A stretch of 64,000 nucleotides of DNA, taken from NCBI RefSeq assembly GCF_041261445.1, contig NZ_JBGCCU010000021.1, forward strand, positions 62,001 through 126,000. The letters are read 5' to 3'. Below the pieces are notes generated by a model. It saw only the letters and a list, made by a program, of their open reading frames with translations, was not told where the DNA came from and did no database searches. This document shows positions 23,996 to 30,248 of this stretch, piece by piece (the first letter of the stretch is position 1; every line of letters starts with the position of its first letter). The stretch comes from Catenulispora sp. EB89. Lineage in GTDB: Bacteria > Actinomycetota > Actinomycetes > Streptomycetales > Catenulisporaceae. The position numbers were made by a program, and so were the translations under genes.

Positions 23996-25183
23996 CTAGG
24001 ACCCCATAGCCGCCAACAGTTTCTCGTCCGTCTCACCCAGCACCATCGCCACCGCCCCGAGCGCGCACGCCTGCGGGCCCAGCGAACCGACCTGGATCGT
24101 CATCGCGTCGCCGGCCAGCGGCAGCGACGCCGTCGCCGCGGCCTCGCGCAGTGGCCCCATCAGCAGCTCGCCTGCCGCGGACAGGGCGCCGCCGATGATG
24201 ACGCTCTGCGGGTTCAGGATGTTGCCGAGCATGCCGACCGCGCGGCCGGCCATCGTGCCGGCGTCCGACAGGGCCCTGATGCAGCCGCGGTCGCCCTGCC
24301 AGGCCATGGTGATCACGTTGCGCAGGGTCAGGCGGTCGCCGTAGGCCGGTTCCAGTGCGCGCATGACGACCGGCAGCCCCACGAAGGTCTCCAGGCAGCC
24401 GCGGTTGCCGCAGCGGCACAGCGGCCCGGTGGCGTCCACGACCAGGTGGCCGATCTCGCCCGCGCCGCCGTTGACGCCGCGGGTCAGCTGTCCGTTGGAG
24501 ACGAACGCGCCGCCGACGCCGCCGTGCAGCTTCATGTACACGAACTCGTCGCAGCCGCGGGCCGCGCCCCAGCGGCGTTCGGCCAGGGCGCCGAGTTTGG
24601 TGTCGCCGTCGGCCAGGACCGGGAGGTTCAGGCGGGCGCCGAGTTCGGCCGCGACCGGGATGCCGGCCCAGCGCGAGGGCATGCCCGAGCTGGGGACGCC
24701 GCGGGCGGTGTCGAAGGGCCCTGGCACGCTCACCCCCACGCCCAGGATGCGGCTGGGGTCCGTGCCCGCCTCGTCGATCGCGGTGCGGACCAGGTCGGCG
24801 GCGACGTCGAAGCCCTGGCCCGGGTCGTAGCCGACGGGCAGGCGGACCGACTTGGCGATGCGGACCGCGTGCGCCACGTTGGCGATGATCACGTGGACGT
24901 GGCGGTAGCCGAAGTCGACGCCGATCGCCTCGCCGCTGGCCGGGTTGAGCATCACGGCGGCGCCCGGGCGGCCGGCGCCGCCGCCCGCCGGGGTGAGCTT
25001 GGCGTCCAGTTCGACCACCAGGTCGTCGGCGACCAGGGCGGCGATGATGCCGGAGACCGTCGAGCGGGACAGGCCGACCGCGCGGGCTATGTCGGCGCGG
25101 CTCATCGTGCCGCGCTCGCGCAGCAGCCGGACCACGGCCAGCCGGCTGCGCTCGGCGCGGGACTCCGTCGGGGGCGTCCTCAT
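23996..25183 (-). CDS. ROK-family transcriptional regulator
   Basis: The 395-residue protein has an N-terminal winged helix (about 10-75; GTMSRADIARAVGLSRSTVSGIIAAL) and a ROK sugar-kinase-like domain. The domain includes the zinc motif CRCGNRGCLE, a GVSVPGPFD loop and NPQSVIIGGALS. Proteins of this type repress sugar-uptake operons and release DNA on binding a sugar. The kinase active-site region reads ADGDTKLGALAE rather than the usual END-type motif, so phosphorylation is doubtful. It is divergent from the sugar ABC transporter, which it most likely controls through the repeat at 25228-25273. Confidence 0.9.
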   Translation of the reverse strand: MRTPPTESRAERSRLAVVRLLRERGTMSRADIARAVGLSRSTVSGIIAALVADDLVVELDAKLTPAGGGAGRPGAAVMLNPASGEAIGVDFGYRHVHVIIANVAHAVRIAKSVRLPVGYDPGQGFDVAADLVRTAIDEAGTDPSRILGVGVSVPGPFDTARGVPSSGMPSRWAGIPVAAELGARLNLPVLADGDTKLGALAERRWGAARGCDEFVYMKLHGGVGGAFVSNGQLTRGVNGGAGEIGHLVVDATGPLCRCGNRGCLETFVGLPVVMRALEPAYGDRLTLRNVITMAWQGDRGCIRALSDAGTMAGRAVGMLGNILNPQSVIIGGALSAAGELLMGPLREAAATASLPLAGDAMTIQVGSLGPQACALGAVAMVLGETDEKLLAAMGS

Positions 25184-25227
25184 GGTTCTGAAGGATGCTG
25201 CGATCGGGCGTCATTAGTCAAGGATCA

Positions 25228-25273
25228 AACAAATTCAGGGGTTGAAGCCCCCGTTAGTTCGGTGGAATTTGTT
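25228..25273. promoter_or_regulatory. Inverted repeat, candidate ROK operator
   Basis: AACAAATTC at 25228-25236 and its exact reverse complement GAATTTGTT at 25265-25273, 28 bases apart, in an A/T-rich patch between the ROK gene and the ABC transporter operon. Confidence 0.5.
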
Positions 25274-25395
25274 CGTCCATCACGGAATCGCAACATGCTT
25301 GACGCCTCCATTTCGTCGCCTTTACGTTTCCCGCAACGCCGCCCCACTTCAAAAACGACAGGTCCCTCACTCGAGTCGATGAAAGAAGGCTGATC

Positions 25396-26808
25396 ATGGG
25401 TGCACGCTCCCACCGGTCCGTCACGGTTGTCCTGGCCGTGGGACTGGCCTCCGGCCTGGCACTGGCCGGTTGCTCCTCCAGCTCCTCCAAGCCCTCGGCG
25501 GGCACCTCGGGGTCGGCGGGTTCCACGTCCGCCTCCGGGGCCGGCTCGTCGTCGAGTTCGTCCTCGGCCGGCGGCTCGGCGGCCCCGGGACCGGCGCTGC
25601 CGGACCTGTCCGGCAAGTCGATCCAGGTGCTGGCCGAGTGGTCGGGGACCGAGCAGCAGGACTTCCAGAAGGTGATCGACGCCTTCACCGCCAAGACCCA
25701 CGCCAAGGTCAGCTACCAGGGCGCCGGCGACCAGACGCCGACCGTGCTGCGCAGCAAGCTGGCCGGCGGCGGCGCCCCGGACGTGGCGCTGCTGGCGCAG
25801 CCCGGCGCCATCGCGCAGTTCGCCAAGGCCGGGCAGATCAAGCCGCTGGGCGCGAACGTGATCGCCGAGATCGACGCGAACTACGACCCGAGCTGGAAGA
25901 AGCTCGGCACGGTCAACGGCCAGGTCTACTCGATCATGTTCAAGGCCGCGAACAAGTCGACGTTCTGGTACAACACCGCGCAGTTCCAGCAGGCCGGCGT
26001 CACGCCGCCGAAGACCTGGGCGGACTTCCTGAAGGACTGCCAGACGCTCTCCGACGCCGGCATCACCCCGGTCTCGGTCGGCGGCGCGGACGGCTGGACG
26101 CTCACCGACTGGTTCGAGAACGTCTACCTGTCCCAGGCCGGCCCGGACAACTACGACAAGCTCACGCACCACCAGATCCCGTGGACCGACCCGACGGTGA
26201 TCCAGGCGCTGACCACGCTGAAGCAGCTGTTCGGCAACGACCAGTTCATGGCCGGCGGCAAGTCCGGGGCGCTGCAGACCTCGTTCAACGACTCGGTCAC
26301 CCAGACCTTCAAGAGCCCGCCGAAGGCGGCCATGGTCTACGAGGGCGACTTCTCCGGCTCGGTGATCACCTCGACCACCTCGGCCAAGCTGGGCGCCGAC
26401 GCGAAGTTCTTCCCGTTCCCGGCGGCCGGCTCGCTGACCAACTTCGTGGACGGCGGCGGCGACGCCGCGCTGGCCACCAACGACAACCCGGCGACGATGG
26501 CGTTCATCCAGTTCCTGGCCTCGCCGGACGCCGCCGAGGCGTGGGCTTCGGCCGGCGGCTTCGTCTCGCCGAACAAGAACGTGCCGATGTCCTCCTACCC
26601 GGACGACACCACGCGCGCCGAGGCGCAGATGCTGGTCGGCGCCGGCGACGGCTTCCGCTTCGACATGTCCGACCAGGCTCCGGTCGGGTTCGGCGGCACC
26701 AAGGGCGCCGGGGAATGGAAGGACCTGCAGGACTTCCTGAGCAGCGGCGACGTCAACGGCACCGCCGCGCAGCTGGAGAAGGACGCGGCGAAGGAGACCT
26801 GGCAGTAG
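25396..26808 (+). CDS. Sugar ABC transporter substrate-binding lipoprotein
   Basis: The 470-residue protein has a signal peptide with lipobox LALAGC (lipidated C26), then a ~45-residue Ser/Gly linker and a type 1 extracellular solute-binding domain (KVSYQGAGDQTPTVLRSKLAGG, PDVALLAQPG, FWYNTAQFQQAGVTPPKTWADFL). It is anchored to the outside of the membrane and delivers a sugar to the permeases encoded next. Length and overall pattern recall the AglE alpha-glucoside binding proteins; the substrate is not proven. It is first in a four-gene operon. Confidence 0.9.
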   Translation: MGARSHRSVTVVLAVGLASGLALAGCSSSSSKPSAGTSGSAGSTSASGAGSSSSSSSAGGSAAPGPALPDLSGKSIQVLAEWSGTEQQDFQKVIDAFTAKTHAKVSYQGAGDQTPTVLRSKLAGGGAPDVALLAQPGAIAQFAKAGQIKPLGANVIAEIDANYDPSWKKLGTVNGQVYSIMFKAANKSTFWYNTAQFQQAGVTPPKTWADFLKDCQTLSDAGITPVSVGGADGWTLTDWFENVYLSQAGPDNYDKLTHHQIPWTDPTVIQALTTLKQLFGNDQFMAGGKSGALQTSFNDSVTQTFKSPPKAAMVYEGDFSGSVITSTTSAKLGADAKFFPFPAAGSLTNFVDGGGDAALATNDNPATMAFIQFLASPDAAEAWASAGGFVSPNKNVPMSSYPDDTTRAEAQMLVGAGDGFRFDMSDQAPVGFGGTKGAGEWKDLQDFLSSGDVNGTAAQLEKDAAKETWQ

Positions 26809-26810
26809 CC

Positions 26811-28238
26811 ATGGACGAGAGCCTGTCCGCGTCGCCCGCCGCCGGGTCCGTCCCGGCGGCGCGGCCGCCTTCCGAGAACCCCTCCCACCCGGGGCCGCGC
26901 GCGCCGCACCCCCTGGCCGACCACGGTCGCAGCCCTCTGCGAATCCCGGTCCGAGTCCGTTTCGGCTTCCTGATCCCGGCCGCGATCGTGCTGGCCGCGA
27001 TCATCATCTGGCCGGCCGTCGACTCGGTCTGGCTGAGCCTGCACAACGCCGACGGCTCCAAGTGGGTCGGGCTGCACAACTACCACACCCTGTTCACCGA
27101 CTCCGCGACGCTCACCGCGCTGAAGAACAACATCATCTGGGTGGTCTGCGCGCCGACCGTGGCCTGCGCGCTGGGCCTGATGTTCGCCCTGATGGCCGAG
27201 AAGATCCGCTGGTCGACCGCGTTCAAGGCGGTCATCTTCATGCCGATGGCGATCTCGTTCCTGGCCGCCGGCGTGATCTTCGAGCTGGTCTACCAGCAGG
27301 ACCCGAACCAGGGCGTGGCCAACGCCGTGGCGGTCGGCGTCCACGACACCTTCGCGCCGTCCTCGAAGTACCCCGGCGCGCACCCGCGGCCGGCCACCGG
27401 CAAGGCGGGCACGGCCGGGTCGTTCACCTCGGTGCAGACCTTCCAGGCCGGCACGGTCGCCCCGCTGCCGCTGGTCGGGATCCAGGCCGCGGGCCTGCCG
27501 GGCAAGGCGGCGCAGGCCGCGGCACCCACCGCGGAGCCGACTCCGGACGAGATCGAGGGCACCGTCTGGCTGGACATCATCTACGGCGGCGGCGGCACGC
27601 CGAACCACATCGACGCCGGGAAGAAGGGCATGCCGGGGGTCTCGGTCAAGGCGATCGACGTCGCGACCGGGAAGAGCGCCGGATCGGCCTCGGCGCACAA
27701 CGACGGCACGTTCGCCATCAAGGGCCTGAAACCCGGGGGCACCTATCGGTTGGAGCTGCCGGGCAGCAACTTCGCGCAGCCGTACCGGGGCATCCAGTGG
27801 CTGGGGCCGTCTCTGGTGACGCCGGCGATCATCGCCTCGTATCTGTGGATCTGGGCTGGTTTCGCGATGGTGTTGATCGCCGCCGGGCTCGCCTCGATAC
27901 CCCGGGAGTTGCTTGAGGCGGCGCGGGTCGACGGAGCCAACGACAGACAGGTGTTCTGGCGTATCACCGTGCCGTTGCTGGCTCCGGTGCTGCTGGTGGT
28001 GATGGTCACCCAGATCATCAATGTCCTGAAGGTCTTCGACCTGGTCTACGTCATCGCTCCGGGCTCCACGCTGCCCAACGCGAACGTGCTCGCCGTGCAG
28101 ATGTGGAACGTCTCCTTCGGCGGCGGTGCGGACCAGGGTCTGGGCAGCGCGATCGGGGTGTTCCTGTACGTGCTGGTGCTGCCGGCCATGTACTTCAACA
28201 TCCGCCGCCTGCGTAACGAGAGGAAGGAGGGGCGATGA
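26811..28238 (+). CDS. Sugar ABC transporter permease with large exported insertion
   Basis: The 475-residue protein is about 170 residues longer than normal. The first ~45 residues are Pro/Ala-rich. Membrane helices begin at about 51, and the EAA-loop for ATPase contact is IPRELLEAARVDGANDRQVFWRITVPLLAP (363-392). Between about 165 and 335 a non-membrane insertion contains a beta-sandwich-like module, GVSVKAIDVATGKSAGSA...DGTFAIKGLKPGGTYRLELPG, resembling SdrD-B/carboxypeptidase-regulatory domains. By topology the insertion faces outward. ATG 26811 is 2 bases after the binding-protein stop. Confidence 0.88.
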   Translation: MDESLSASPAAGSVPAARPPSENPSHPGPRAPHPLADHGRSPLRIPVRVRFGFLIPAAIVLAAIIIWPAVDSVWLSLHNADGSKWVGLHNYHTLFTDSATLTALKNNIIWVVCAPTVACALGLMFALMAEKIRWSTAFKAVIFMPMAISFLAAGVIFELVYQQDPNQGVANAVAVGVHDTFAPSSKYPGAHPRPATGKAGTAGSFTSVQTFQAGTVAPLPLVGIQAAGLPGKAAQAAAPTAEPTPDEIEGTVWLDIIYGGGGTPNHIDAGKKGMPGVSVKAIDVATGKSAGSASAHNDGTFAIKGLKPGGTYRLELPGSNFAQPYRGIQWLGPSLVTPAIIASYLWIWAGFAMVLIAAGLASIPRELLEAARVDGANDRQVFWRITVPLLAPVLLVVMVTQIINVLKVFDLVYVIAPGSTLPNANVLAVQMWNVSFGGGADQGLGSAIGVFLYVLVLPAMYFNIRRLRNERKEGR

Positions 28239-29122
28239 GCGTCACGCGTCCCGTCGCAGTGCCGGGCCAGGTCCCGGTCGGCACCCGCATCGCCAAGCGC
28301 CTCAGCGGCGGTGCGGTGTACCTCATCGTGCTGGCGGTCGGCGTCGTCTGGCTGATCCCGACGCTGGGGCTGTTCATCAGCTCCCTGCGCAAGGCCTCCG
28401 ATATCAGCAGCAGCGGCTGGTGGACGGTCTTCACGCACCCGGCGCAGATCACCTTCAAGGACTACACGAACCTATTCGCCAACAAGGGCATCATCCAGTC
28501 GCTGTGGAACACGGTGATGATCACCGTGCCGGCCACGGTGCTGGTGGTGTTCCTCGGCGCGCTGGCCGCGTACGCCTTCGCCTGGATCGACTTCCGCGGC
28601 CGGGACTGGCTGTTCGTGGTGGTGGTCGGGCTGATGGTGGTGCCGATCCAGGTGGCGCTGCTGCCGGTGGCCGCGCTGTACCGCAACCTGCACCTGTTCG
28701 GCACGATCCTCGGCGTGGTGATGTTCCACGTCGGGTTCGGCCTGCCGTTCGCGATCTACCTCCTGCGCAACTTCTTCGCGGCGATCCCGCGCGAGCTGCT
28801 GGAGGCCACCCGGATGGAGGGCGGCAGCGAGTGGACGATCTTCCGCAAGGTGATCGTGCCGCTGGGGCTGCCGGCCATCGCCTCGCTGGCCATCTTCCAG
28901 TTTCTGTGGGTGTGGAACGACCTGCTGGTGGCGTTGGTGTTCTCGAACGCGAAGACGCAGCCGCTGACCGTGGCGCTGCAGTCCAACATGCGCCAGTTCG
29001 GCAGCAACATCGACATCCTGGCGCCCGGGGCGTTCCTGTCGCTGTCGGTACCGCTCGTCGTGTTCTTCGCTTTCCAGCGATACTTCGTCCAAGGACTCAT
29101 GGCCGGCTCGGTCAAGGGTTAG
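28235..29122 (+). CDS. Sugar ABC transporter permease (MalG-like)
   Basis: The 295-residue protein has six predicted membrane helices and the EAA motif IPRELLEATRMEGGSEWTIFRKVIVPLGLP near residues 187-216. The start overlaps the upstream stop (ATGA), so the two permeases are made together and form the membrane channel. It is of normal length for the family. Confidence 0.93.
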   Translation: MSVTRPVAVPGQVPVGTRIAKRLSGGAVYLIVLAVGVVWLIPTLGLFISSLRKASDISSSGWWTVFTHPAQITFKDYTNLFANKGIIQSLWNTVMITVPATVLVVFLGALAAYAFAWIDFRGRDWLFVVVVGLMVVPIQVALLPVAALYRNLHLFGTILGVVMFHVGFGLPFAIYLLRNFFAAIPRELLEATRMEGGSEWTIFRKVIVPLGLPAIASLAIFQFLWVWNDLLVALVFSNAKTQPLTVALQSNMRQFGSNIDILAPGAFLSLSVPLVVFFAFQRYFVQGLMAGSVKG

Positions 29123-29162: not shown

Positions 29163-30248
29163 GTGGCGGACGTCCGTTTCCTCGACGCCACGAGGGTGTT
29201 CCACGGGGCGTGGCGGCCCGCCGTCGACGGCGTCAGCATGGACGTCCGCGACGGCGAGCTCCTCGTCCTCACCGGCCCCTCCGGCAGCGGCAAGAGCACT
29301 CTGCTGCGCATGCTCGCGGGGCTGGAGCCGATGGACCGCGGCAGCGTGCTGATCGGCGGCAGGGACATCGGGCGCACCGCGCCGGACAAGCGCGGCGTCT
29401 CGATGATCTTCCAGGGCTTCGCCCTGTTCCCGAACCAGACCATCCGCGAGAACATCGCGCTGCCCCTGACGATGCGCAAGAACTCGGCGAAGTCGGCGGC
29501 GGCGCGCGTCCAGCAGGTCGCGGAGCTCTGCGGCGTCGCGGACCACCTGAACAGCAAACCGGACTCGGTGGGCTACGACGTCCGCCAGCGCACGACCATG
29601 GCCCGCGCGATCGTCCGCAGGCCGGACGTGGTCTGCCTGGACGAACCGCTGGCCGGCTCGGGCGTCCCGCTGATGATGCGCGGCCGCTCGCCGATCGCGG
29701 CGCTCCAGCGCGAACTGGGCATCACGACCCTGTACGCGACCTGCAGCTCGGTGGACGCCTGGTCGATCGCGGACCGCATCGCGGTCCTGGACAGCGGCCG
29801 GATCCAACAGGTCGGCACCCCGACGGAGGTCTTCAGCAAACCGGCGACCATCGCAGTGGCCCAGTTCCTCGGCGAACCGGGCATGAACCTGGTGACGGCG
29901 ATCGCCGCCGACGGCGTGGCCCGCCTCGGCGGCCTGGCGGTCGGGCTGAGCTCAACGCAATCCTCAGCGCTGACCGGGAGTCGCGTGGTGATCGGGATCC
30001 GGCCGGAGGACCTGTCGATCGGCGCAGAGGCCGACGGTGTCCGCGCGACCGCGGTGCTGGTCCGCGACACCGGCCGCGACTACCTGGTGACGGCCCGGAC
30101 GGTGGTCGACGGGGAGGAGAGCGATCTGGTGATCCGCCACAGCGGAGGACCGGTGCCGGCGAAGGGCGAGAGCGTGGTGCTCGGGGTGCGGGCCGGGGCG
30201 GCGCTGCATTTGTTCGATGCCGGGAGCGGGGCCCGGCTGCCGGATTGA
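29163..30248 (+). CDS. Sugar-type ABC ATPase with degenerate signature, D-loop and switch region
   Basis: The 361-residue protein has the MalK layout: nucleotide-binding domain plus a C-terminal regulatory OB/TOBE region (VVIGIRPEDLSIG). Walker A GPSGSGKST (38-46), Q84 and Walker B VVCLDE (156-161) are intact. The ABC signature is replaced (VGYDV at 136-140 instead of LSGGQ), the D-loop reads AGSG, and the switch histidine is C194 (YATCSS instead of YVTHDQ). ATP may be bound, but hydrolysis by the usual mechanism is unlikely. GTG 29163 has an AGGAGAG site and lies 40 bases after the permease. It may be a regulatory subunit or rely on a separate ATPase such as MsiK. Confidence 0.85.
   Translation: MADVRFLDATRVFHGAWRPAVDGVSMDVRDGELLVLTGPSGSGKSTLLRMLAGLEPMDRGSVLIGGRDIGRTAPDKRGVSMIFQGFALFPNQTIRENIALPLTMRKNSAKSAAARVQQVAELCGVADHLNSKPDSVGYDVRQRTTMARAIVRRPDVVCLDEPLAGSGVPLMMRGRSPIAALQRELGITTLYATCSSVDAWSIADRIAVLDSGRIQQVGTPTEVFSKPATIAVAQFLGEPGMNLVTAIAADGVARLGGLAVGLSSTQSSALTGSRVVIGIRPEDLSIGAEADGVRATAVLVRDTGRDYLVTARTVVDGEESDLVIRHSGGPVPAKGESVVLGVRAGAALHLFDAGSGARLPD

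Follow-up and report, generated by a model that had tools for sequence, protein, structure and literature searches.

The psK locus

A 64,000-nucleotide stretch of DNA from Catenulispora sp. EB89 (contig NZ_JBGCCU010000021.1, positions 62,001 to 126,000; hereafter ‘the window’) carries a divergently transcribed gene for a ROK-family regulator and, facing away from it, genes for a sugar-type substrate-binding protein (SBP), a MalF-type permease, a MalG-type permease and a protein that resembles the MalK/UgpC family of ATP-binding cassette (ABC) ATPases. This last gene, here termed psK, is the subject of the present analysis (Table 1). The genome that carries it is 11.9 Mb in size. The psK reading frame has no internal stop codon, and residues 2–288 of its product align with the archaeal MalK protein 1g29 (phmmer, E = 8.9e-67), one of 546 distinct PDB sequences that match at E ≤ 0.001. 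The protein scores above the Pfam cut-offs for ABC_tran, OB_MalK, CysA_C_terminal and TOBE_2, and it reaches 277.5 bits with the UgpC model NCBIfam NF008653, below the curated cut-off of 432. A MalK fold with an OB/TOBE regulatory domain is found both in the Pfam matches and in the structure predicted by AlphaFold, for which a 13-row alignment of the psK family gave a poor model (pLDDT 56) and a 49-row alignment a good one. The closest protein from a named relative is that of C. rubra (98% identical), and six Catenulispora or Catenulisporales records match at 85–98%.

Table 1. Features of the psK locus and of the psK paralogue. Positions are those of the window unless a contig label is given.
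Feature	Position	Strand	Details and basis
ROK-family (NagC/Mlc-like) regulator, divergent	23996..25183	-	395 aa; Pfam ROK 163 bits
ROK–SBP intergenic region, possible operator/promoter	25184..25395	.	Conserved blocks; 7-genome alignment
Sugar-type SBP	25396..26808	+	470 aa; Pfam SBP_bac_1
MalF-type permease	26811..28238	+	475 aa, inserted segment, start inferred; Pfam scan
MalG-type permease	28235..29122	+	295 aa; Pfam BPD_transp_1; 40 bp upstream of psK
psK, putative MalK/UgpC-type pseudo-ATPase	29163..30248	+	GTG start, 361 aa; open reading frame and homology
psK Walker A, GPSGSGKST, retained	29274..29300	+	Residues 38–46; motif alignment
psK Q-loop Gln84, retained	29412..29414	+	13/13 family sequences; invariant in 49-row alignment
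psK VGYDV, replacing LSGGQ; drifting	29568..29582	+	Residues 136–140; motif alignment
psK Walker B strand and catalytic Glu, VVCLDE, retained	29628..29645	+	Residues 156–161; alignment (VVCLDEP = 156–162)
psK AGSG, replacing the xxLD D-loop	29652..29663	+	Residues 164–167; alignment
psK Thr193-Cys194, replacing TH	29739..29744	+	Switch His to Cys in 13/13 family sequences; alignment
psK C-terminal regulatory OB/TOBE domain	29871..30245	+	Residues 237–361; Pfam OB_MalK 36.0 bits (cut-off 27), TOBE_2 23.5 bits (cut-off 21)
psK paralogue	L086:775-1869	-	364 aa, LSFDI/AGPG/TC; gene for a secreted ricin-type lectin 9 bp upstream

Motif state and distribution of the psK family

In an alignment with 14 further ABC ATPases, of which the psK genome itself contributed 11, psK was found to possess the Walker A motif, the Q-loop and the Walker B motif with its catalytic glutamate that characterize an active MalK/CUT1-type ATPase, and to lack the LSGGQ signature, the xxLD D-loop and the switch histidine. 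The alignment is free of indels at every motif, retained or replaced, and the sequence RQR follows directly after VGYDV. A preliminary description, made from the DNA letters alone, had reported a MalK-type protein that keeps GPSGSGKST and LDEP and in which LSGGQ has become VGYDV, the D-loop AGSG and TH TC, by replacement rather than by frameshift; the phmmer search, the motif alignment and the intact frame bear it out on each of these points.

An orthologue of psK is present in all 10 of the genus genomes searched, with VGYDV, AGSG and TC identical in every one, and in two of the three genomes of a second genus; neither the third genome of that genus nor the sole genome of a third genus gave a match at E ≤ 1e-90. 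The psK genome also contains a paralogue that is 73–74% identical to psK. Among the resulting 13 psK-family sequences, the signature reads VGYDV in 10, LDFDL in the two from the second genus and LSFDI in the paralogue, the D-loop reads AGSG in 10, AGTG in two and AGPG in one, and the H-loop is TC throughout. The Walker A lysine, the Q-loop glutamine and the Walker B aspartate–glutamate pair are invariant in all 13, as is Trp17, a candidate A-loop aromatic residue. The 13 sequences form a single clade (support 100/100 in a 30-row tree), the stem of which is long, at 1.61 changes per column, and they share 165 invariant columns of 361 at identities down to about 60%.

The replacements appear to be confined to this clade. 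Canonical motifs were found in all 29 comparison loci (the 11 next-best matches in the psK genome, together with the 18 top-scoring non-family loci fetched from the order), with an xLD D-loop, TH, and a signature that reads LSGGE in one case and MSGGQ in another. Since the motifs are replaced in 13/13 family sequences and in 0/29 other loci, their loss in psK is beyond chance. A class-wide search with a psK-family profile (E ≤ 1e-105) matched one of 394 genomes, psK's own (this even sample of the class seemingly included no other member of the family), and an order-wide search of 293 genomes (E ≤ 1e-75) gave non-family matches of at most 287 bits; five or six candidates were scored per genome in both searches, and independent degenerate cases may escape at that depth. 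Among the papers that searches of an open-access library returned, none was seen to describe the psK protein family in its title or the opening of its abstract. Judged by these sequence comparisons, the motif replacements in psK are neither sequencing error nor decay, and the best reading of psK is as a lineage-restricted, importer-type pseudo-ATPase.

Selection on psK

The ratio of non-synonymous to synonymous substitution (dN/dS), calculated by the Nei–Gojobori method with Jukes–Cantor correction in a custom script, is 0.08–0.17 between the window copy of psK and seven of the nine other genus members (G003 and G006 were omitted). This is close to the values for the neighbouring MalG gene (0.11–0.15 in six of seven comparisons; the seventh is 0) and for the MsiK-type ATPase genes of the same genomes (0.06–0.17 in six comparisons, in which the gene is each genome's matching hit and the two MsiK-type copies are not sorted by orthology). 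The ROK gene gives 0.06–0.12 (six comparisons). The SBP gene evolves faster than MalG, psK or ROK, at 0.24–0.52 (six comparisons).

Constraint is distributed unevenly along the protein. As counted over the 13 family sequences with region boundaries chosen by hand, the invariant columns amount to 17/23 in the Walker A region (residues 34–56), 21/34 in the Q-loop and groove segment, 8/22 in the helical subdomain, 9/14 in the replaced D-loop segment and 10/12 in the H-strand and H-loop, and to 1/7 in the C-loop, the site of the former signature. Three cysteines (Cys123, Cys158 and Cys194) are present in all 13 proteins, 12 of which have no further cysteine. Over the longer span of the family, the signature thus seems to have been released from selection, with the ATP pocket held, as are the residues that now occupy the D- and H-loops, and this combination suggests a changed function rather than decay.

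The preliminary description had left two readings open, a non-hydrolysing regulatory subunit or a decaying gene whose work is done by MsiK, and had proposed a search for homologues and a comparison of substitution rates. VGYDV does recur within the genus, with variant signatures elsewhere, the cysteine switch recurs in every family member, and the rates are those given above; the first reading fits this evidence and the second is contradicted by it. The long stem ahead of the psK clade, the drifting C-loop and the higher ratios at larger distance (0.32 against the paralogue and 0.45 against G013, a genome of the second genus, both less reliable at such distance) are what a gene made redundant by MsiK might display, but the gene is intact in 10/10 genus genomes, the frame is unbroken in all 13 loci, dN/dS within the genus is low, and the Walker A and H-loop segments, like the 165 invariant columns as a whole, have been held. 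Neither relaxed selection nor broken frames, the marks of a pseudogene, were found, and decay is rejected as scarcely credible. The idea that psK is a still-active ATPase with an unorthodox site draws on the invariance of the Walker A lysine, the Q-loop glutamine and the Walker B aspartate and catalytic glutamate; the joint replacement of signature, D-loop and switch histidine and the lost constraint on the C-loop make it improbable.

Permease genes and the ROK regulator

The gene order ROK, SBP, MalF, MalG, psK is shared by seven genomes, including that of the window; in G003, G004 and G006 the contig carrying psK starts too near the gene for the full order to be seen, and MalF and ROK were found, partly on other contigs. 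In all nine genus loci with adjoining DNA, psK stands right after MalG. Two FtsX-like genes come after psK in the window; behind the psK of G004 (L095:3586-4443), the matches amount to fragments of one of them. The insert of the MalF protein has a sub-threshold match to a CarboxypepD_reg-like domain (24.5 bits, cut-off 32.3) before the main permease match, at residues 270–325 of the stretch 26805–28238.

In the second genus, psK is transcribed divergently from an orthologue of the ROK gene (70–71% identical) at a distance of about 0.2–0.3 kb, and no SBP-MalF-MalG set lies between the two. On the ROK side in G013 there is a trehalose synthase-type gene (TIGR02456, 910 bits, cut-off 678), plus a non-orthologous permease set. 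Across the 14 genomes of the taxonomic family, the presence of ROK and of psK agrees in every case (both in 12, neither in two; E ≤ 1e-90), and a MalF orthologue is found in 10 (E ≤ 1e-40). The conserved blocks of the ROK–SBP intergenic region include two arms, AACAAAT and ATTTGTT, with a spacing of 32 bases, which may be an operator for ROK. A scan for promoter-like sites gave none, and terminator-like sites numbered 1 against 2.1 expected. One stretch of the regulator reads DGDTKLGAL in the window and DNDANLGAL in the second genus (L087:7343-8572); we take it to be part of the ligand site, which may then have changed. G003 contains a second ROK copy (L131:6472-7635, 71% identical), around which 12 kb hold no match to psK, SBP, MalF or MalG.

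The agreement of ROK and psK in 14/14 genomes, with MalF in only 10, and their divergent adjacency in the second genus raise the idea of psK as a soluble sensor of ATP that partners the ROK regulator and touches no permease. It is distinctly unlikely: every copy still shows constraint in the segment comprising the Q-loop and the groove for the transmembrane domains (TMD), psK in the genus stays behind the permease genes, no ROK gene adjoins the paralogue, the second ROK copy of G003 has no psK nearby, and the pattern is informed by two genera only.

MsiK-type ATPases as the likely source of power

The psK genome contains 47 MalG-like matches (E ≤ 1e-8). A listed ABC ATPase lies no further than 2.5 kb from four of them and no further than 8 kb from nine; the list consists of 150 scored of 290 first-look candidates, among which MalK types rank top and distant ATPases may be absent. 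Besides psK, the three ABC ATPases within 2.5 kb of MalG-like genes (C4, C31 and C7) have canonical motifs, and their MalG partners are weaker matches (25, 27 and 29% identity; E = 5e-21, 8e-12 and 2e-10, respectively). Few ATPase-like genes of this genome adjoin a MalG-like permease gene; psK is among them, and it is the degenerate one. Two MsiK-type genes, both canonical, share 91% identity and match their counterpart in a relative from the order, presumably Streptomyces to judge from its place there, at 76% and 73%. In Streptomyces, MsiK serves several sugar permeases. That MsiK-type ATPases would do the transport work at the psK locus fits the genome, because only 4/47 MalG-like matches have a listed ATPase within 2.5 kb.

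psK shares its fold, its length and its regulatory C-terminal domain with the multitask sugar ATPases MsiK and MsmX, and MsiK types are the closest sequences outside the psK family (41–42% identity to the two of its own genome, about 40–43% to those of order relatives); they have LSGGQ, NLD and TH, whereas psK has none of the three. One study of MsmX tested the charged residues D77, R104, E110 and K154, which are linked to its multitasking, and reports a complementing homologue with two of the four (PMC7658222). psK keeps one of these charges (arginine, as R105), and the two MsiK-type proteins of its own genome keep two and one, so the comparison does not discriminate. The argument that psK, without multitask docking charges, does not compete with MsiK was accordingly rejected, since most of these charges are likewise missing from the MsiK-type proteins of its genome; psK might conceivably block sugar permeases as a plug, in competition with MsiK.

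Proposed mechanism and implications

A catalytic site of an ABC ATPase takes its Walker A and Walker B motifs and its Q- and H-loops from one subunit and its signature from the second, as set out in PMC7756269. psK has neither the histidine for its own site nor the signature for that of its partner, so by motif location, and with the pairing presumed, neither psK–psK nor psK–MsiK would retain one fully canonical composite site; from this we infer that psK binds ATP, does not hydrolyse it normally and has a regulatory role at the ROK-controlled locus. With its cis pocket kept (Walker A, Walker B, catalytic glutamate and Q-loop), psK can probably still hold ATP, or would sense ATP/ADP; with the residues for the two-subunit ATP sandwich and for hydrolysis replaced, it would hydrolyse little or none. 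We therefore favour, with moderate confidence, psK as a functional, selectively maintained MalK-fold pseudo-ATPase, an ATP-binding regulatory subunit of a ROK-controlled sugar-uptake locus whose transport power would come from canonical MsiK-type ATPases; the regulation of sugar uptake is a likelier role for psK than the supply of its energy. In E. coli, MalK hydrolyses ATP and controls MalT; psK adjoins a ROK regulator, and might act docked on the permease, or on that regulator as MalK does on MalT.

Natural, evolutionarily kept replacements of the signature and H-loop are also known from heterodimeric ABC exporters (ABCB2/B3, TM287/288 and Pdr5), and a psK–MsiK pair on MalF–MalG might by analogy form an asymmetric importer with one impaired nucleotide-binding domain (NBD). 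The place of psK behind MalG in all nine genus loci, the constrained Q-loop and groove segment and the availability of MsiK-type genes would suit such a pair. According to PMC7756269, however, such degenerate-site pairs keep one canonical composite site, whereas psK loses elements of its own and its partner's site, which would impair both; unlike those exporters, psK keeps its catalytic glutamate and is a stand-alone importer-type NBD, and in the second genus it persists without this permease. We consider the asymmetric pair unlikely.

Several observations weigh against psK as a regulatory subunit of a ROK-controlled locus. Conservation of its regulatory domain is low compared with most of the protein (37/125 columns invariant), and over the D-loop the confidence of the predicted model drops to 64 and 68 in two 10-residue blocks. 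No ROK, SBP, MalF or MalG gene of the psK-locus type occurs in the 15 kb around the paralogue, where a contig end is 0.8 kb away and the other flanking gene is of the metallo-beta-lactamase fold. The ROK–psK link rests on two genera, and hence on few independent events. In G012 the contig ends inside the ROK gene, and G013 has an SBP-MalF-MalG set of maltose type, not orthologous to that of the psK locus, about 3.5–7 kb away, so that ‘no permease’ there means only none adjacent or orthologous. An operator shared between the genera is not supported, as the best 24-base match between the ROK–SBP region and the ROK–psK gap of the second genus (16/24) was reached in 156 of 500 shuffles.

A bolder version of the regulatory reading, which we regard as rather doubtful, would make psK a switch and not a pump: an unsandwiched, ATP-bound subunit that, with cysteine in place of the histidine and with cysteines at 123, 158 and 194, would read ATP, and possibly redox state, and set the ROK-controlled sugar-uptake programme, the permease being optional.

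The best-known degenerate sites are those of ABC exporters, each paired with an intact one. psK would by comparison be a natural separation-of-function mutant, a conserved importer-type NBD that has kept the residues of its ATP pocket and lost signature, D-loop and switch histidine together. If this is true, a MalK module can persist for binding and signalling alone, and psK would offer a test of ATP binding without hydrolysis at a type I importer.
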